From Sphingorhabdus sp. M41 (GTDB taxonomy: Bacteria > Pseudomonadota > Alphaproteobacteria > Sphingomonadales > Sphingomonadaceae): DNA of 64,000 bases. Positions within the stretch are counted from its first letter, which is position 1. Every line of letters begins with the position of its first letter. The DNA lies in contig NZ_CP014545.1 in assembly GCF_001586275.1 (NCBI RefSeq), positions 2,010,501 through 2,074,500 of the forward strand, written 5' to 3'. Below, piece by piece: positions 47,918 to 56,667 of this stretch. A model generated the notes under the pieces. That model ran no database searches and was not told where the DNA came from. It saw only the letters and a list, made by a program, of their open reading frames with translations. Both the position numbers and the translations under genes were made by a program.

Positions 47918-49615
47918 CTAGAAAAGCTTCGCCTTTCTAAAATCTGACTCGAGTTCGCGAACAAGGTTCGGGTTGGCAATCCATCTGCCTAACACGTCGG
48001 CCGGATCTGCTGTTTCCGGAAAACCGGAACGTTTCGCCAAAAGCCGCCAGGCTTTGCGTGCTTCCTCTTTCTGGCCCAGCATCGCCGAGGACAGGATATA
48101 GCTGATTTCGAGCCCAGGCGCAGCGCCTGGCACGGAATCCATATATTTTGAAGAAAGTTCCTGCGCACCCTTTGCGTCTCCGCGGCGCAGTTTTTGCAGG
48201 GCCACTGTCGCTGCAACCACCTGATCCGCATTGGCATCCATTTTCAGAGCCCTTGTGGAATAGGCTTCACCTTCCGGCATGTTGCAGGCCAGCATGTACA
48301 TTCCCAGATAGCCCATTATCCTGGAATTCAGCGGATTGAGACTGACAGCGCGTTCACCCCAGGCAACGCCCTTGCGACAATCACCTTCCAGAAAGGCGCT
48401 CTGCGCCACCGCAAATGTTGCGGATGCGCTATCATTATCGAGTTTCGCCGCTCGCAGCGCAAAATCCTTGCCGTACCCCTCGATTTCATCCGGCAATCCG
48501 AACCGCTCGGAAAGATTTTTGGCGACGGCCACCATGCTCATCAAATATGAGTCGTTGGGATATTGTTGTGCAGAGGCGTCCATACATTGCAAGACGGGTT
48601 CCAGAAGCGCCGAGTCCTGGTAACGCATATATTGGTGAAACTGGAGCAGACACGGATAGCCGGGCGTAAAATCAACACGATATTTGGACAGTTCATGCTG
48701 GGCAATTTTGCCGTAGGGACCCGCAATGGCAATCACCGCTCGATCGAGATCAGCGTCCCGTTTTTGGCTGTCCATCGTTTCAATTCTGCTCGACCAGATC
48801 ACCTCTCTGGTAGCGCTGTTGACGAGGCGAAGCTGGATGCGATTGGCCGCATCGTTCAAGTTCGAGGTTTCTAGCAAATATTGCGAAGATCGCGAAGATT
48901 GCGTCGGGTCAGCGTCTTCATCAAAAATCCGCACTTGATCGAACTTCTCCAGCGCTCCGACCAAATGGCTATGGATCATCTCGAGCTTGGCCCGGGAAGA
49001 TGAATCGATAATGCCTTCCGTCGTTTTCACGACCACGGCTGGATAAGCGATTTTGGTTGCCGTCACGCTATCGGTCTTTTGCAGGAAATAAGTCACGGCT
49101 ATGGCGAGAAACGCTATTGCTGCAAGAATCATCAGAACATGACTGCGGCTGACCGTCGGCATGCGACTGGTGCCGGCATGTCCCCTGTTCGGCGGTTCGG
49201 TTTTGATTGATGAAACGACAGGCTCACCGCCTAACTGCTCGGAATCAATCGCAACATTCTCGCCTTCGCGGTCGCTCTCGTTGGGCCCCAGAATGATTTC
49301 ATAATGATGATACGGGATGAAGAGCCGGCTCTCGCTTTTCTCGCGCAAGTAGAAATGGTCGAGCATGCGACGCAAACGGCCGATTTGAACCCGAGGATAA
49401 CTGTCAATCTGGGTATCAAAACTATCATCGCGACCAAGCGCATCGACTGCAACGCTATAAGCCGTCAGCGGGGTATTTTCTTCCTGCAATTTATGGTCGA
49501 CCAAATACCGTAAAAGCTTGCTCATCGTCGGGGAGCGTGCAAATTCAGAACTGCACAGCAGTCGGTCGCGCTCCAAACAAAGCTGAAGCTTTTCCGCTTC
49601 GGTCAATATCGGCAA
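47918..49615 (-). CDS. Membrane-anchored regulator-like protein A (SxxFxRS N-domain, TM, TPR-like C-domain)
   Basis: 565 aa from TTG 49615 (GGAGGG just upstream); TTG 49606 aligns exactly with the start of the paralogue. The N-terminal 110 residues (EFARSPTMSKLLRYLVDHKL, YSVAVDALGRD, SYPRVQIGRLRRMLDHFYL) match a domain found at the head of many TPR/adenylate-cyclase-type regulators. A single helix at about 159-179 (VLMILAAIAFLAIAVTYFLQ) separates it from an outer part with a TolB/FlgO-like stretch and helical repeats (GDCRKGVAWGERAVSLNPLNSRIMGYLGMY). The ToxR/CadC-like topology suggests signal transfer across the membrane (inference). Paralogue of the protein at 50523-52214. Confidence 0.7.
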   Translation of the reverse strand: MPILTEAEKLQLCLERDRLLCSSEFARSPTMSKLLRYLVDHKLQEENTPLTAYSVAVDALGRDDSFDTQIDSYPRVQIGRLRRMLDHFYLREKSESRLFIPYHHYEIILGPNESDREGENVAIDSEQLGGEPVVSSIKTEPPNRGHAGTSRMPTVSRSHVLMILAAIAFLAIAVTYFLQKTDSVTATKIAYPAVVVKTTEGIIDSSSRAKLEMIHSHLVGALEKFDQVRIFDEDADPTQSSRSSQYLLETSNLNDAANRIQLRLVNSATREVIWSSRIETMDSQKRDADLDRAVIAIAGPYGKIAQHELSKYRVDFTPGYPCLLQFHQYMRYQDSALLEPVLQCMDASAQQYPNDSYLMSMVAVAKNLSERFGLPDEIEGYGKDFALRAAKLDNDSASATFAVAQSAFLEGDCRKGVAWGERAVSLNPLNSRIMGYLGMYMLACNMPEGEAYSTRALKMDANADQVVAATVALQKLRRGDAKGAQELSSKYMDSVPGAAPGLEISYILSSAMLGQKEEARKAWRLLAKRSGFPETADPADVLGRWIANPNLVRELESDFRKAKLF

Positions 49616-49739
49616 GGTCCCTCCATCTGATACGGTGGCCTGCCCTATCCAGACAATCAAAAGAAAGAGCGTAGTTCCGCTCCTATCAACCCCTTACCTA
49701 CAATATGGTTGCGGGAAAGTCGCGATTAATTGTCCGGCA

Positions 49740-50246
49740 TCATGCGGATTTTCTTTCCTCGGGTGTGCTCAAATCTACAAAGCAGCCAAAAATACCCAGG
49801 ACTTTTCCATCTCCACCGATTTGGCAAGTGCCACGGGCGAGGACGGGAAGTTCATTGCCGTTTTCGGTGAGGATCCGAGCGCGAAATTCAAAATCTGCGC
49901 CTTCATCCAAAGCACGGGCAACCGCAGCTTGAACCATGGGGCGATCGTCTGGATGGTAATAATGGATCGCATTTTCCAGGGGAGGATGACCAAGTGAATG
50001 GCGGCGTTCGTGCATGTCAAAGACATAGTCTGACCATTTTACGATATTTGTTCTCGCATCCATATGCCAAGATCCGAAACGTCCGACATCTTCTGAAATC
50101 TCAAGCGTCAGCTGACAGCGTTCAAGTTCCAGTTCGGCGGCCTGCAAATTCGTTTGTAGTTGTCGCATACGAATAATCAAATATGCAATCGCCAAGATAA
50201 AGATAAAGACAACTAGTAGAAAATAAAAAAAATAAGCTGATAACAT
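49740..50246 (-). CDS. Membrane-tethered PAS domain protein
   Basis: 168 aa from ATG 50246 (GGGA eight bases upstream; TTG 50276 is an alternative). One membrane helix (YFFYFLLVVFIFILAIAYLIIRM), a coiled coil (QLQTNLQAAELELERCQLTLEISE), then a PAS fold: GRFGSWHMDARTNIVKWSDYVFDMHERRH, YYHPDDRPMVQAAVARAL, DFEFRARILTENG, GIFGCFVDLSTPEER. There is no kinase, GGDEF or other output domain, so it may signal by contact with a partner. It lies between the two paralogous regulators on the same strand. Confidence 0.75.
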   Translation of the reverse strand: MLSAYFFYFLLVVFIFILAIAYLIIRMRQLQTNLQAAELELERCQLTLEISEDVGRFGSWHMDARTNIVKWSDYVFDMHERRHSLGHPPLENAIHYYHPDDRPMVQAAVARALDEGADFEFRARILTENGNELPVLARGTCQIGGDGKVLGIFGCFVDLSTPEERKSA

Positions 50247-50522
50247 ACTTGCTATCCCACCCCTGCTGTTCGCCAAGATATGGTATCCTGCGGCAATATT
50301 AACCGTTTTTGTGCCACAGCAAGTTTAATAAATCGATAGCCTGTTTCCGATATATTTTTGAGCGCGATAAAATTGCAACGGTGGTTGTGAGAGCGAAAAA
50401 TTTAGATGGTATATTGAATCGATGCCGGATCTGGTTGAGATCGCCCAGCGGCGATCGGCACCGAGCCTCGTCACCCGTCAGCTAAGCCAACGTCCGGGTT
50501 GCGGAAACGCGGAAGCCAGGAA

Positions 50523-52214
50523 CTAGTTTCCAAACAATCCGGAGCGATCAAAAACCGTCATGATGTCATCGATCAGGGATGGACTGTCTATCCATTGCCC
50601 AAGCACTTCCCGCGGCGGACTTTTTTCAGAGAGGCCATAGCGCAGGGCCAAGGATTTCCACGCTCGTCGCGCCTCTTGCCGGTCATTTAACATGGCTGAT
50701 GACAGAATATAGGTCAGTTCAAGCGCCGGTTCGTCTCTCAGCGACGAAGCCATATATTCCGATGACAATTCCCGGGCCGCTTGCGCTTCACCTCGCTTCA
50801 GCATTTGAAAGGCTACGGCCGCCGCGATCGCCAAATCCGCATTGGGATCGAGTTCCAATGCCTGGGCCGCATATTTCTCGCCGTCAGGAATATCGCAGGC
50901 GATCATGTAGAGGCCGAGATATCCGGATATCCGGGAATTCAAAGGGTTCAACTCCACTGCCTTTTTTCCCCACGCCAGACCAGTTTCGCAATCTCCGGCA
51001 AAAAAGGCGGACTGAGACACGGCAAAATTGGCAGCAGCACTATTGTGATCTAGTGCTTCCGCCTGCCGAGCGAGCATCATTCCCAACCCTTTGACAGCGG
51101 ACCTGTCGCCAGAGTTTTCCGACATATTTCGTGCTAAGGCCACTACACTCATAAGATGCGCGTCATTGGGAAAAAGCCTCATCGACTTTCTCAAACATGA
51201 TCGCAGCGGCTCCAGTTTCCCGGCTTCTCTGTAGCGGACGTACAAATCGAATTGCAGCAGACAGGCATATCCAGCCGAATAATTATTCTCGGCCTTGGAT
51301 ATTTCTGCCTGGGCGATTTCTCCATATTGCCCCGCCAGAGCAACGATCGCCTTATCTAGAGCCAACCCGAACGCCTCTTCATTGGCCGTATTCAGTTCCT
51401 TGGACCACAATATCTCGCCGTTGGCCCCATCCAGCAGGCGCAACTCGATATCGTCTGCGGATGCTTCCAAATAGCGCAGTCGGATCACATAGCCGGATTT
51501 TTGCTCCTTGCCGGCTTTTGCATCAAATATCCTTATCCCGCCAAATCCGTTCAATCCACGGACCAACTGATTTTCTATGGATTCAGATAGCTCGGATGGG
51601 CGTGTTCCCGAAACGCGCTCCGGCATATCAAGGGCAACTCTCGGATAGGCAATCTCGTCGACTTCCTGAGCCGGCCAGAGCAGATATGCCAATATGCCGA
51701 TCAACACGAGCAGGATACAGACGCCTAGAATACTGACAAAACGCCGGTGCGAGCGATTGTGATCTGCCGAGTGCTTTTCATGCAATGGGCGTGATTCCAA
51801 CTCGGGAGCTTTTGAAACCATCTCCTCCGACGCATCCGAAACCGTAGACCGTCCGATCAGATTTTCCCCATCCTCGGAGGAAACCGCAATGGGCTGCAGG
51901 ATGATTTCATATTTGTTCGGCGCTATCAACAGCCGGTTCTCGCCACCCTTCCGCAGATAGAAATTGTCGAGCATACGGCGCAGGCGTCCCATTTGGACAC
52001 GCGGATAGCTGTCGGTCTGGCTATCGAAATTCGCATCGCGGCCGAGCGCATCTGTAGCGATCGTATAACTTTTTAGCGGGACGCTATTCCCAGACAGCTT
52101 ATAATCTACCAAAAAACGCAATAGCTTGCACATGCTCGGCGAACGAGCAAATTCAGGATCGCTCAATAACCGATCGCGTTCCAGACATAGTTGCAGTGCG
52201 GCGGCATCATCCAT
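50523..52214 (-). CDS. Membrane-anchored regulator-like protein B (paralogue of the 47918-49615 protein)
   Basis: 563 aa. The N-domain at 1-108 repeats that of paralogue A (EFARSPSMCKLLRFLVDYKL, ATDALGRD, SYPRVQMGRLRRMLDNFYL); a single helix at about 160-180; the outer part has IRIFDAKAG, GEILWSKELNTANEEA and helical repeats (GDCETGLAWGKKAVELNPLNSRISGYLGLY, EARRAWKSLALRYG). Similarity with A is clear through the whole length by eye, so a duplication. ATG 52214 with AAGGA upstream. Divergent from the winged-helix gene at 52406; the shared 191-bp gap carries three phased repeat arrays. Confidence 0.72.
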   Translation of the reverse strand: MDDAAALQLCLERDRLLSDPEFARSPSMCKLLRFLVDYKLSGNSVPLKSYTIATDALGRDANFDSQTDSYPRVQMGRLRRMLDNFYLRKGGENRLLIAPNKYEIILQPIAVSSEDGENLIGRSTVSDASEEMVSKAPELESRPLHEKHSADHNRSHRRFVSILGVCILLVLIGILAYLLWPAQEVDEIAYPRVALDMPERVSGTRPSELSESIENQLVRGLNGFGGIRIFDAKAGKEQKSGYVIRLRYLEASADDIELRLLDGANGEILWSKELNTANEEAFGLALDKAIVALAGQYGEIAQAEISKAENNYSAGYACLLQFDLYVRYREAGKLEPLRSCLRKSMRLFPNDAHLMSVVALARNMSENSGDRSAVKGLGMMLARQAEALDHNSAAANFAVSQSAFFAGDCETGLAWGKKAVELNPLNSRISGYLGLYMIACDIPDGEKYAAQALELDPNADLAIAAAVAFQMLKRGEAQAARELSSEYMASSLRDEPALELTYILSSAMLNDRQEARRAWKSLALRYGLSEKSPPREVLGQWIDSPSLIDDIMTVFDRSGLFGN

Positions 52215-52250: not shown

Positions 52251-52289
52251 TTCACGGTATTTCACGGTATTTCACGGGTTCATCACGGC
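52251..52289. repeat. Four CACGG direct repeats at 10-10-11 bp spacing
   Basis: TTCACGGTAT, TTCACGGTAT, TTCACGGGTT and CATCACGGCT follow one another, so CACGG recurs on one face of the helix four times. It lies directly upstream of regulator B (start 52214, minus) and could be its operator. Confidence 0.7.
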
Positions 52290-52303
52290 TCCCGCAAAAC
52301 CTG

Positions 52304-52321
52304 TGTAACTTATTGTAACAT
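52304..52321 (+). promoter_or_regulatory. GTAAC direct-repeat operator, site A
   Basis: GTAACTTATTGTAACAT at 52305-52321 is two GTAAC half-sites 10 bp apart, oriented toward the winged-helix gene that starts 85 bases downstream. A nearly identical site (15 of 17 bases) occurs at 56284-56300. OmpR/PhoB-type winged helices bind such tandem repeats. Confidence 0.6.
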
Positions 52322-52352
52322 AGCCGGGGGTGGCGAAACATTCAAACGATCA

Positions 52353-52372
52353 AATCTGGATAGAATCTGGAT
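52353..52372 (+). repeat. AATCTGGAT direct repeat, 11-bp period
   Basis: AATCTGGAT at 52353-52361 and again at 52364-52372, just before the ribosome region of the winged-helix gene. A third phased repeat in the same promoter. Confidence 0.55.
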
Positions 52373-52405
52373 TCGATCAGGGGGAATAGAGTCAAAAGTA
52401 GTGAC

Positions 52406-53980
52406 ATGAAATATCGCTTTTTAAATTTCGAATTGGATCCCGAGAGATTTGAGCTGTTCCAAAATGGTGAGAAAGTGGTCATTCAACCACAGGCGCTCGC
52501 CATATTGTTGATGCTCGTGCAGAATCAGGGGAATTTGCTGCCGAAGCAGGATATGTTGCGACAATTGTGGGCCGCCAGAACCATTTCGGACAGCGCCCTA
52601 TCCAGTCAGATCAAAGCCCTTCGCCGCATTTTAGGAGATGACGGTCAGCACCAGCGGGTTATCGAAACAGTTTATGGCCGGGGATTTCGTTTTGCAGCTC
52701 GTGTCGAAACAGTCGTGTCACCGGCACTATCAGATCGTTCAGCCCCCCTTCCAACAGCGGAGGACGAGCAGGCCAAGCGCGCTGGCAAACCACCAGTCAT
52801 TGCAGTGCTGCCCCTCTGCAAAATAGGTGAAATGGCCAAGCACTCCGCCTTGCCCGAGGCGCTACCAGCCGACATCACAACGGCGTTGTCCCAATTGAGA
52901 TGGCTGTTCGTGATCGCTCGCGCTTCTAGCTTCCGCTTTGATGCCAATCTCCCCGACCTGGCCAAAATGAGAGAAGAGCTTGGTGTGGATTATGTTCTGA
53001 CCGGCTGGGTTGAGCTCGTTGCCGGTCAGATGCTGGTCGGGGTGGAGTTGACCGAAACCAGACACCATCGCGTCGTATGGGCGGAGCGCTATGATGCCCC
53101 GCTGTCAAGAATCCATGACGTGCGAGCGCAAATGGTGCGCGACATTATCAGTGCGATAGACATATCGATCAGTGACACGGAAGCAGCGCTTGCGAAACTG
53201 ACAGCACCCGATCAGCTGACTGCTTGGGAATCCTACCACCTAGGGATCTCGGCCGTGGCCGGCGTCCGGATGGACCTCAAGCATGCACTCAGTCATTTTG
53301 AAGTTGCACGGACGAAAGCCCCGGCATTCTCCCGCGCCCATGCCGGCGCCGCCTACATCCATGGTTTGGGCCTATACCATCTTGCACGCGGCGGGAACGA
53401 GAGCACCGCTATTTATAACATGCAAATATTGGGCGAGCAGGCGTTGATATGCGATCCGCTTGATCCCTTCGCCCATCTTGTGAAAGGCCGCGCAGAAAGA
53501 TTCAGCGGAAACATGGACAGCGCGCTGGATCATTATGCCAAGGCGATCGCATTGTGCCCCAACTACGCAGAGGCCTATCATTCACAAGCTGTGATTCTCA
53601 TGTTGAATGGAGATTTTTCCGCATCCTATGAGGCGGCCCGGCTTGCTGTAAAACTTAATCCAAATTGCCCGATGCGGTTCGAGGCGGAGTCCACCCAAGC
53701 CTACACCGCCTTTCAGTTAGGCAAGAATGAAGAAGCCCTTGCACTGGCGCGCAAGCTCGCAAAATTTTCGCAAAGCAGTCCACTGGCCTTGCTCACTGCG
53801 ATGATCGTGTTCCATCATTTGGGTCTCGAGAAAGAAGCAAGTCTTGTTCACTCGCGCGTGGCATCAACGGGCATGCAGTTGAGGACCGACATGCTCCGCA
53901 CATTTCCGGAAAGTGCTGCAAAAATCTCTGCGCAGGTTACACGAACGGTCGCGCATTATTTAAACCGGTCTGCAGCATAG
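52406..53980 (+). CDS. Winged-helix (OmpR/PhoB-type) regulator with TolB-like and TPR domains
   Basis: 524 aa. The N-terminal 100 residues are a typical Trans_reg_C winged helix (FELFQNGEKVVIQPQALAILLMLVQNQG, DSALSSQIKALRRILGDDGQ, VIETVYGRGFRF). Residues about 128-260 resemble the TolB/FlgO-like segment of CadC-family proteins (VIAVLPL, LGVDYVLTGWVE), and from about 290 there are TPR-like helices (YAKAIALCPNYAEAYHSQAVILMLNGDF). No membrane helix is seen, unlike CadC. Probably controls the locus through the GTAAC repeats (inference). Divergent from regulator B. Confidence 0.82.
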   Translation: MKYRFLNFELDPERFELFQNGEKVVIQPQALAILLMLVQNQGNLLPKQDMLRQLWAARTISDSALSSQIKALRRILGDDGQHQRVIETVYGRGFRFAARVETVVSPALSDRSAPLPTAEDEQAKRAGKPPVIAVLPLCKIGEMAKHSALPEALPADITTALSQLRWLFVIARASSFRFDANLPDLAKMREELGVDYVLTGWVELVAGQMLVGVELTETRHHRVVWAERYDAPLSRIHDVRAQMVRDIISAIDISISDTEAALAKLTAPDQLTAWESYHLGISAVAGVRMDLKHALSHFEVARTKAPAFSRAHAGAAYIHGLGLYHLARGGNESTAIYNMQILGEQALICDPLDPFAHLVKGRAERFSGNMDSALDHYAKAIALCPNYAEAYHSQAVILMLNGDFSASYEAARLAVKLNPNCPMRFEAESTQAYTAFQLGKNEEALALARKLAKFSQSSPLALLTAMIVFHHLGLEKEASLVHSRVASTGMQLRTDMLRTFPESAAKISAQVTRTVAHYLNRSAA

Positions 53981-54024
53981 CCTTGAAAATATCAGGCTTT
54001 ACCGTTTTTTGACCCGCAACGCCC

Positions 54025-54957
54025 TCAGCTTGACTGCGCCTTGGCCGCCGCACGCTCTTCATCAAAAGCCTGCAGAACTATAGTGCCGATCGATAGCTCG
54101 ACATTGTCTGCATTTCTAATGCTCACCCGGTAGAAAAACTTAGATGTGGCTTTAAACTGGGTCAGTGCCTCGGTCGCAGAATACATTGTATCGATCAATA
54201 TCTCTTTGCCAAGATCGTCATGTCCGATAACCTGAAACGGAAGGCAATCAGCAGTCGCTTCGACCGCGCCGCCCGTGTCGGAACCCTTGTGGAGAACCTC
54301 GAGCACGCCGGTGTCGATACGGGCTGCCCGATAGAAAGTGGACAGCCAGACCATCAGATCATCCAGTGGAAGTCGCTTGGAGAACACAATCCCGACCCTT
54401 TGGCCAGATTGCCACCGCACGGTACCGGTAATATCCAGCAGTTCGGGCACGGAAAGCCGCAAGTTCTTGCCGATCTCAAACGTAAAATCGGTGCTCACGC
54501 AGATACCGGCGGGCGAGATGTCACAGATATCCCCATGAATTAACCGCGATCCCTGGTAAAGATTGATCGGATGCTTCATCTCGATCCGTGGCAGACGAGA
54601 AATCCGACCGTGTTTTGCCTCATTGGGCTTGGCAAGCACCTCAGCGATATCAATCGGAGTGGTAAACTCGATACCGGCCAGCGCCTTTTTCCGCCACCGC
54701 ACGGTGCCGGCCAGTTCCTGGTCCTCTGTTAACAGGGCAGAGATGCCGTCACTCAGTTCAAAATCAGGATGTACCTCGACCATCATGCCGGTGGCCGAGA
54801 GATTTTTGATGAATCCCCAGCCTTCTCCGGATTCTGTCTTGATCTTGGCAAGCCGAAGCATGGCGATATGCCGGTCCTGTTTTCTGCGGTCTTCATCAGC
54901 CAGAATATTATCCGACGCTGCATCCGAGCTAATACCAGATTCGATCATATTTGTCAT
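54025..54957 (-). CDS. Double PilZ domain protein
   Basis: 310 aa with two PilZ-like modules. The first has RRKQDR (RxxxR) and NLSATGMMVE (N/DxSxxG), so it could bind cyclic di-GMP; the second has DISPAGICVS with a less clear arginine motif (RISRLPR). The remainder is a helical/beta tail without a recognised fold. Its ATG follows the TAA of the DUF11-like gene directly (no gap), so the two are co-translated. Possibly links c-di-GMP level to the secreted proteins of the operon (inference). Confidence 0.78.
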   Translation of the reverse strand: MTNMIESGISSDAASDNILADEDRRKQDRHIAMLRLAKIKTESGEGWGFIKNLSATGMMVEVHPDFELSDGISALLTEDQELAGTVRWRKKALAGIEFTTPIDIAEVLAKPNEAKHGRISRLPRIEMKHPINLYQGSRLIHGDICDISPAGICVSTDFTFEIGKNLRLSVPELLDITGTVRWQSGQRVGIVFSKRLPLDDLMVWLSTFYRAARIDTGVLEVLHKGSDTGGAVEATADCLPFQVIGHDDLGKEILIDTMYSATEALTQFKATSKFFYRVSIRNADNVELSIGTIVLQAFDEERAAAKAQSS

Positions 54958-55569
54958 TTACTTGACCTTCATTCGGTAACGGAGGGTAAACCGTTCGGAC
55001 TTGCCGATCGTGGGCAGCAGATCGCCACGTGGGCGGAGCTTGATATGGGTGACATTTTCGTCAAAACCTTCGATATCAGCCACGGGAACATAGGCGAATG
55101 TTTTGCCGCCATCGCTGGAAAACTCTATAGAATCCTGAGCATTAGAAAGACCGTCAAAACTGAATTCCAGGCCACTGTCGTTATCCTTGAACGCGGCCGG
55201 GCCGGTGCCGGCTTGGCCCAGGTCACCCACGTAGAGGGAAAGATGCTCGGGCACTCTATCAGTGATCGCAAAGGAAGCGGCAGGAGCGCCCCCTTCCATC
55301 GGGCCGGTCACGGTAACCAGAAAATCGATCATGGCTCCAGGCACCGCTGAAGGCGCAACACCCTGCCCCAAAGGGCTTCCAACAATGTTACTCGATAACG
55401 CAATGGCAATATTCTCATTGGTATCGGCTTCCGCAAAAGCTGGCAGCGGAACCGCAATAAGCATGGATGCAATAATCCACGACAGGGCACCCGACCGTGA
55501 GGTTGCACGGCGGACTTGGCGGTCATCATGAACCATCAGAGCCTCGTCTTTCACATTGGGTGTCTGCAT
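54958..55569 (-). CDS. Secreted DUF11-like repeat domain protein
   Basis: 203 aa. After a basic N-terminus, a Sec signal (GALSWIIASMLIAVPLPAFA) leads to a beta-rich domain: NIVGSPLGQGVAPSAVPGAMIDFLVTVTGP, FAITDRVPEHLSLYVGD, FSSDGGKTFAYVPV, then HIKLRPRGDLLP and GKSERFTLRYRMKVK. That pattern (ITDxxPxxLxL, lone strand ends RYRMKVK) is like the DUF11/conserved repeat domains of surface proteins. AGGAAA precedes the ATG. Middle gene of a three-gene minus operon (small secreted protein, this, PilZ). Confidence 0.7.
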   Translation of the reverse strand: MQTPNVKDEALMVHDDRQVRRATSRSGALSWIIASMLIAVPLPAFAEADTNENIAIALSSNIVGSPLGQGVAPSAVPGAMIDFLVTVTGPMEGGAPAASFAITDRVPEHLSLYVGDLGQAGTGPAAFKDNDSGLEFSFDGLSNAQDSIEFSSDGGKTFAYVPVADIEGFDENVTHIKLRPRGDLLPTIGKSERFTLRYRMKVK

Positions 55570-55672
55570 GATCTTTTCCTGTTGTAACCTGTTTACTGTA
55601 ATTCTGATTCAAAATTAAGGACCATAAATTTTGCCTTCATTCGCTGCATGTCCGTTCCTCTTATTCGTCCGC

Positions 55673-56044
55673 TCATTGCACTTCGATCAGGCGGAGTTCG
55701 CAAGTGGCTCCAGCGGCTGAATTGGCGTCGGAACCCAGAAGCGTTTCGCAACTGCGAAACGACGTGCGGCGCAAAACCGTGGTGGCGAAATTATCGGCCT
55801 TGGGTCCGGCCGATATAGTGGAATTTGTTGTGAATGGTCTGAGTATCTGCGCACTTGCAACCGCAGTAGCCCTAGCGTTTGTCATCGGCGTGGCAGGATC
55901 GCTTGCAAATGCCTCAGAGCCCAGCGCCGGCGATATGATGATGATCATGGCAGAAAGAATGGCGAGAGGCACGAAGCTGGAACAGAAATAGGGCCGAAGA
56001 TGCTCGGGCCGCACTTTCCACAATATTGTACCAACTAATTGCAT
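55673..56044 (-). CDS. Small secreted protein of the DUF11/PilZ operon
   Basis: About 123 aa from ATG 56044 (GGGA six bases upstream; GTG 56059 also in frame). A hydrophobic segment (FVPLAILSAMIIIISPALGSEAFA) fits a signal peptide. The mature chain reads ATAVASAQILRPF, then CETLLGSDANSAAGATCELRLIEVQ; the ending C...L-R-L-I-E-V-Q recurs in small sphingomonad envelope proteins as far as I remember. Two cysteines could pair. No named family. Start of the operon that carries GTAAC site B upstream. Confidence 0.5.
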   Translation of the reverse strand: MQLVGTILWKVRPEHLRPYFCSSFVPLAILSAMIIIISPALGSEAFASDPATPMTNARATAVASAQILRPFTTNSTISAGPKADNFATTVLRRTSFRSCETLLGSDANSAAGATCELRLIEVQ

Positions 56045-56667
56045 GACGCATCCCACCACTAATTTGCAAGAGGGAGGCTCTCAGGCATCTGTCCGTAGAG
56101 GGAGCAGGTAGAATGTCTACCCGCTCCCTCAGGAACAGATCGGCACGATATCGACCAGAATATCGCACCAATGCCGGGACAACTGTGGCGCTTAATTGGG
56201 TTACCACAGGCAAAAGCCCTATTGCCCCACTTGCCCATCATTTGTGGCGCAACATGACGACAAAAGGCAGTTAGACACGGCTAATGTTACAGTATGTTAC
56301 GGTTCCATAATTTTAAGTTGCTGTATTTAAAGGGCTTTTATCAAACGCTTCAGGGAGTGGATCGGGAGGATTAACTGTTTCTACATAGTAGTTAATAAAA
56401 TCCTTGCCATTTATCATGCTGTCGAAACACGATTAAGCTGCTCCGCAGGCCGAATTTGCAGTTTAATGCCCTCGTGACTCACGGTAGAGCCAGATATACT
56501 ATATTCACAGCATTTCGCAAAGCCCATTAGCGGCATATCGACGGCAACAGCCCGAGTTATATCAACTACATTCCTGCCAAGCGCAGAAAATAGCGTCAGG
56601 TTGGGTGAAAGATCCCAAGCTTGATTTTGGCGCTGATCAAAGCAGATCTATTTGATTGAAAGCCTGA
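56045..56667. other. 623-bp stretch without a confident gene
   Basis: Holds GTAAC site B (56284-56300) and the presumed promoter of the minus operon. A minus open stretch of about 78 codons (roughly 56410-56645) reads FSALGRNVVDITRAV...KLQIRPAEQLNRVSTA before a stop, but has no usable start codon or ribosome site; it may be a remnant. Base composition is AT-rich around 56290-56420. No hairpin terminator found. Confidence 0.5.
56284..56300 (-). promoter_or_regulatory. GTAAC direct-repeat operator, site B
   Basis: Minus strand GTAACATACTGTAACAT, 15 of 17 bases identical to site A at 52305-52321, same 10-bp period, and in both cases followed by AGCCG after one or two bases. It points toward the small secreted protein/DUF11/PilZ operon that starts about 240 bases away. 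Confidence 0.6.

Follow-up and report, generated by a model that had tools for sequence, protein, structure and literature searches.

The stretch of DNA analysed here (hereafter the window) comprises 64,000 nucleotides of the genome of Sphingorhabdus sp. M41 (contig NZ_CP014545.1, positions 2,010,501 to 2,074,500), and towards its end it carries a syntenic gene block with two near-identical intergenic motifs, site A (GTAACTTATTGTAACAT, positions 52305..52321 of the window, plus strand) and site B (GTAACATACTGTAACAT, 56284..56300, minus strand), which are the subject of this work together with the RNA leader that follows the second of them. As read from the flanks in related genomes, the order of the block is Mur ligase, site B, small secreted protein, DUF11-like protein, PilZ protein, an optional winged-helix gene (52406), site A, and then the genes 50523, 49740 and 47918; in one genome (G028) the block is split across two contigs, and its middle lies outside this reading. 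The small protein (55673..56044, minus strand, 123 amino acids) has a hydrophobic N terminus and a conserved cysteine pair, is probably exported and matched nothing in a Pfam search; its start and frame are kept in 10 of 11 congeners and broken in G001. It is followed on the same strand by a 203-amino-acid protein (54958..55569), also probably exported, which was recognised as DUF11-like by eye and hit no Pfam family at E 0.01, and by a protein of 310 amino acids with two PilZ stretches (54025..54957; PF07238, E 1.2e-23). The 52406 gene (52406..53980, plus strand) encodes a winged-helix (Trans_reg_C; PF00486, E 1.2e-14) and TPR protein. Divergent from it, on the minus strand, lie 50523 (50523..52214), a membrane protein with a conserved N-terminal domain of about 107 amino acids, one transmembrane segment near residues 160-178 and a TPR-like C-terminal part; 49740 (49740..50276), a small membrane PAS protein with a transmembrane segment and NCBIfam PAS-type matches below cut-off; and 47918 (47918..49660, true start probably inside the frame), a paralogue 46% identical to 50523.

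Among the 32 genomes of the genus set, that of the window included, 11 carry an orthologue of the PilZ gene (at least 67% identity), and in all of these the PAS gene and 47918 are present as well, the 47918 orthologue being 62-72% identical in the ten other genomes. The DUF11-like gene gave a full-length match in nine of the 11 and a fragment in G001, and was not found in G029. In G001 both this gene and that of the secreted protein are broken, and the leader and site B are kept (locus L066, 7360-8104). Three block genomes (G011, G028 and G029) are without a 50523 orthologue at 65% identity or more and showed no site A in the fetched stretches; site B is exact in G011.

The first-pass annotation of this DNA had described the two sites as agreeing at 15 of 17 bases, with half-sites one helical turn apart, and had read them as a shared operator linking two transcription units. 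The letters of the window bear out the positions and the identity; the period is to be read as 10 bp, with TGTAAC recurring at positions 1 and 11. Conservation within the syntenic block favours the shared operator too. Both sites are the sole matches in the window at up to three mismatches, and two matches were found in none of 100 shuffles. The genome scan that the annotation had proposed returned sites A and B alone at up to one mismatch in the whole 3.34-Mb genome; at two mismatches a single further match appeared, located in an open reading frame. The same tandem geometry, like half-sites in the same orientation with a 10-bp period, was found at A, at B and at the sites before another DUF11 operon described below. 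Nevertheless, the half-site TGTNACA is nearly palindromic, so that direct and inverted readings are indistinguishable from sites A and B alone. The AGCCG that had been reported after both sites is indeed present at both, but it is offset between them by one base and, since it is not kept at A, we rejected it as part of the shared operator; at site B, TAGCCGT is kept in 10 of 11 congeners. The sites are real and conserved, beyond chance repeats, but neither they, as a tandem-repeat operator, nor the structured leader behind site B represent a new kind of element. A and B look like one conserved operator that joins the two transcription units of the block.

Site A had been taken to point toward the 52406 gene, and so it does, but it lies equally upstream of the divergent 50523, which starts at 52214. 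It is kept in all eight congeners with a 50523 orthologue, with both half-sites intact in each, and in a conservation ranking of the intergenic region the site A window came second of 175, the 12 best windows all overlapping the site. On the strand of 50523 the operator contains a putative -10 hexamer, TATGTT (52317..52322), preceded by a putative -35, TTGAAT (52340..52345); TTGAA(T/A)-N17-TATGTT is found in seven of the eight congeners and the N18 variant in G014. The promoter hexamers at both sites are consensus readings of the sequence, and the overlap of site A with TATGTT suggests repression of the 50523 operon. Just upstream of this promoter, at about 52346-52375, most of the eight congeners retain a direct repeat (CCAGATTCTATCCAGATTTG). 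A different arrangement is apparent at site B, which could be located by alignment in all 11 congeners with the PilZ gene. Parasphingorhabdus flavimaris SW-151 is an isolate that retains it. Here a putative -10, TCTAAC (56270..56275, minus strand), lies 8 bp downstream of the site; it is kept in 10 of the 11 genomes and replaced by TCTTAC in G024, the spacing being constant in all. No TTGACA-like hexamer was found 17 bp upstream of this -10 across the 11 congeners, and site B itself occupies the place expected for a -35, a layout that suggests activation of the secreted-protein/DUF11/PilZ operon. Further upstream, at about 56360-56400 on the minus strand, most of the 11 share another conserved block, GTTAACTA..T..AGAAA..GTTAA.

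The interval from site B to the start codon at 56044 holds an element that the first-pass annotation had overlooked: a leader of about 220 nucleotides (approximately 56045-56263, minus strand) that is more conserved than its surroundings and that RNAalifold folds into a junction of several hairpins. In its core, described by the covariance model R1 (56064..56239, 176 nucleotides in the window), 97.4% of cells are paired and 11 pairs are altered on both sides, in 21 cells, as against 0 of 500 shuffles and 0 to 6 pairs in slid controls, the structure having been derived from the same alignment as that used in the covariation test. Folding stability exceeds that of shuffled sequences, with a z of -5.9 in the window and of -3.6 to -7.0 in the 11 leaders. 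When 296 relatives were searched with R1, full-length strong matches came from exactly the 11 genus members that carry this PilZ gene; a search of the genus at E up to 1 added weak matches in G002, G010, G024 and G027, and on the opposite strand short copies of the long hairpin. Rfam 15 holds no family near its gathering cut-off (the best score, for mir-550, being 15.5 bits where the cut-off is 81), and the leader is apparently undescribed. Among the titles and abstract openings listed in literature searches, none named this operator, leader or operon. The element resembles the structured 5' leaders and riboswitch candidates of Rfam in being multi-helix, placed before a start codon and supported by covariation; unlike them, it lacks an Rfam 15 match, and its full-length strong matches are confined to 11 congeneric genomes. 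A leader peptide was considered for the 60-amino-acid frame 56059-56241 and rejected: its ATG is absent in G003, G015 and G024, a stop interrupts the frame in G001 and a frameshift affects it in G003 (by eye), and across the genomes the longest open run in each frame ranges from 20 to 85 codons. Because the predicted fold takes in, in most congeners, a large part of the sequence ahead of the start codon, which averages 23-78% unpaired (least open in the window, most in G003), we infer that the leader may act as a translational gate.

The operator is not confined to the block. Allowing one mismatch, the pattern matched 25 times in the 32 genus genomes and its reversed control twice; in the other 85 genomes each of them matched eight times. 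The exact pattern TGTWACN5GTWACAT occurs 37 times in 21 of the genus genomes, with two matches for the reversed control. Eight of these are site A, and ten lie before another DUF11 operon. Seven are overlapping readings of one divergent promoter between GT2 glycosyltransferase and MFS genes in four genomes (G013, G023, G026 and G030; loci L072, L080, L082 and L083). Eight fall inside the start of a ptsP-like coding sequence; these are probably coincidental and were set aside as coding, five having been read and three (G013, G023, G030) inferred from the identical match. Among the remaining four, two are readings of a single palindrome (TGTAACCAGTGGTTACA) that neighbours a TetR-like gene in G009 (L170:1501-1519) and is probably the site of that TetR-like regulator itself. 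This palindrome and one G026 copy without the last T are the two exceptions to the rule that the genus matches also fit TGTAACN5GTAACAT.

The other operon encodes a secreted protein of about 344 amino acids whose DUF11 matches (E about 1e-4) fall just below the Pfam cut-off. Out of 30 loci fetched for this gene, 24 gave readable upstream regions; the six dropped were three from other genera, G021 (no open reading frame found), and G002 and G007 (wrong gene, contig end). At up to one mismatch the operator precedes the operon in all 15 readable congeners without the block, in 11 of them exactly, and in just one (G003) of the nine block genomes, three more having it at two mismatches. The half-sites are constant at these sites while the five spacer bases vary, the same conservation with a free spacer being found at site A (8 of 8) and at the DUF11 operon (15 of 15); site B is more degenerate. 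This distribution suggests that control by the operator may have shifted to the block from the other DUF11 operon, where the site has mostly decayed in block genomes. Several of the genomes have further GTTACA-like repeats just upstream of the DUF11-operon operator, or an adjoining TTAA-N7-TTAA that we take to resemble a CtrA box, and GACGTCA palindromes lie further downstream at these loci (L175-L201 for both motifs).

Which protein reads the operator can be approached through the genomes that carry it without the block. None of the 15 has a relative of 50523 at E 1e-15; eight have no relative of 52406 at E 1e-20 and seven have only relatives of 24-33% identity in other places. As these genomes have neither a 50523 relative nor a 52406 orthologue, the common reader should be another protein, probably an OmpR-type regulator conserved in the genus. 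Six OmpR-type response regulators are common to the window genome (G000) and G016, at 79-97% identity; two of them reach an NCBIfam cut-off (PhoB and CtrA), another is nearest to OmpR below cut-off, and the loci of the six hold no operator within one mismatch. The published box of RstA, an OmpR/PhoB-family regulator of E. coli and Klebsiella, is TACATNTNGTTACA (PMC4117788) and shares with GTTACAATAAGTTACA of our sites the tandem TACA/GTTACA half-sites and the 10-bp period; it differs in the inner bases, its fixed inner T's not being kept here, and in the genes concerned. As to an RstA orthologue, the OmpR-like protein of L210 falls below the cut-off of all among the 25 NCBIfam models listed, that of RstA included. 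The CenR operator of Rhodobacter, TGA-N8-TGA, is likewise a direct repeat of about one helical turn at envelope-related genes of alphaproteobacteria (PMC9275681), and ChvI, with GCC-N8-GCC in Sinorhizobium and TTGC-N3-GCAA in Caulobacter, is an envelope-linked two-component regulator of the same class (PMC9731502); the half-sites of both differ from ours, and both motifs were set aside.

In the first-pass annotation the 52406 protein was proposed as a possible reader of the sites that may regulate itself and control the operon. Its good Trans_reg_C domain and the position of site A some 85 bp upstream favour such a role, as does its being the sole long, TPR-type frame among the eight Trans_reg_C places of the genome. 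The gene, however, is intact in only three of the eight congeners that keep site A and 50523: for G001 and G002 tblastn returned pieces interrupted by stops, for G024 it gave a questionable trace (E 0.01), and neither G005 nor G014 yielded a convincing match. Because G024 groups with the gene-bearing G003 and G015 in a tree of three neighbouring proteins, 52406 has likely been lost at least twice. Moreover, no B-like -10 follows site A on the 52406 strand (by eye), and the site is absent at up to three mismatches from 27 fetched loci of non-orthologous 52406 homologues, two of which (L016, L018) have looser TGTNAC matches. With these losses in congeners that retain the sites, and with operators before DUF11 operons in genomes lacking an orthologue, we set 52406 aside as the reader and regard its control of the operon as quite improbable. 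A reader within the block could instead be 50523, 47918 or both, acting as membrane-anchored one-component regulators that would down-regulate their own promoter through A and turn on the secreted-protein/DUF11/PilZ operon through B. Site A sits on the 50523 promoter in all eight genomes, 47918 is present in all 11 genomes with site B, and the paralogues share an N-terminal domain with 28 invariant columns over 30 sequences, a third paralogue included. This domain was found in seven of 190 genomes sampled across the class, that of the window among them, and in several distant homologues we read the parts that follow it as TolB-like or TPR, so that it stands where 52406 has its winged helix. 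The layout of N-terminal domain, single transmembrane segment (hydropathy 2.9 at residue 160 and 2.7 at 175) and further part is that of CadC/ToxR-like regulators (for CadC, see PMC5430869). The 52406 protein has no transmembrane segment, its highest 19-residue hydropathy being only 1.4. Unlike CadC and ToxR, the paralogues have an additional PAS partner gene, and their N-terminal domain is not recognised as a winged helix by sequence: it has no convincing match in Pfam, NCBIfam or the PDB, DNA-binding families included, and an hhalign comparison of the 50523 domain with Trans_reg_C was not significant (probability below 1%), with a plausible register. A role of this domain in DNA binding is plausible; that the paralogues bind the operator seems to us rather unlikely, given the 15 congeners that have the operator and no relative of them.

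Relatives of these membrane proteins also occur in other settings. Ten fetched loci (L089, L091, L093-L100), one of them in the window's own genome, place the third paralogue (26-32% identical) close to a LuxR-like gene and further small genes; most of these have a TAGCGGTAACAT block with one half-site upstream of the LuxR-like gene. They hold no conserved site, one of the ten having a match at one mismatch and two more at two mismatches. In another genus (L130, 8962-11672) a distant 50523 relative (34%) lies near a small exported protein resembling that of the window, with no operator within three mismatches.

Two further alternatives concern the nature of the elements at site B rather than their reader. 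The site could be the promoter of an extracytoplasmic function (ECF) sigma factor, CGTAAC-N16-CGTRTC, with its likeness to A coincidental, as the best-kept parts there are the first repeat and GCCGT(G/A)TCTAAC, at a constant 16-bp spacing. We consider this very improbable, since the second repeat of site B is preserved as well (its G, T and C in all 11) whereas the three bases between the repeats vary, and since both repeats persist at site A and, by eye, at the DUF11 sites in the absence of a conserved CGT(A/G)TC. The leader, for its part, might act mainly as a trans-acting small RNA or give rise to one by processing; its structure and sequence are strongly conserved, loops included, and it persists in G001 and G029 despite broken or missing secreted-protein or DUF11-like genes. 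It ends beside the start codon in all 11 genomes, however, and no U-rich terminator was seen by eye after its last hairpin, and we hold such a function to be unlikely. More speculative still, and in our estimate distinctly unlikely, is a leader of a new riboswitch-like class that senses a surface-growth signal and forms the second lock on the operon, the first being a membrane-sensing operator circuit which, in this lineage, took over the regulation of surface DUF11 proteins from an older operon; a cyclic dinucleotide as the signal would fit the downstream PilZ gene.

We slightly favour, on the sequence evidence gathered here, the interpretation that A and B are two copies of a tandem operator, TGTAAC-N5-GTAACAT, used across Parasphingorhabdus, bound by a dimer of an OmpR/PhoB-type regulator and gating the operon together with its leader. 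A dimer of a genus-conserved response regulator of this type would most likely bind the operator; at site B it would activate the promoter lacking a -35, from which the structured leader and then the secreted-protein/DUF11/PilZ operon would be transcribed, and at site A it would repress the divergent 50523-49740-47918 operon. The leader fold, extending over much of the region preceding the start codon in most congeners, would add a second, translational gate; control would have moved to the block as the operator of the other secreted DUF11 operon mostly decayed, and 52406 would be an optional neighbour, repeatedly lost. Several observations weigh against this interpretation. The operator is found at up to one mismatch only at 52406 among 18 Trans_reg_C loci of two genomes; two-mismatch matches occur at four others, one of them 72 bp before L218, one of the shared response regulators, and none at the locus of its G016 orthologue. 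A wider regulon did not emerge in the window genome, where TGTAACN5GTAACA at one mismatch gave four matches, two of them A and B, against 11 for the reversed control, and the 37 exact matches in the genus reduce to only about seven distinct places, against two for the control. The contrast between congeners without and with the block at the DUF11 operon (15 of 15 against one of nine) is drawn between related genomes. The orientation relative to the gene differs between site A and the DUF11 sites on the one hand and site B on the other. Site B has at most two mismatches to the 15 fixed bases in eight of the 11 genomes and is degenerate in the others (three in G005, four in G014 and G029), and its conservation ranks 131 of 390 windows, outdone by the -10 region and the leader. 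Finally, the leader pairs closest to the start codon have poor covariation support, G003 being mostly unpaired there.

The role of secreted DUF11 proteins is poorly known, and PilZ domains often bind cyclic-di-GMP. Our analysis outlines a small circuit by which secreted DUF11 proteins and a PilZ protein may be jointly controlled in a group of alphaproteobacteria, and it contributes a candidate structured RNA that Rfam 15 lacks. It also provides a likely case of an operator that decays at one surface operon and is kept at another.

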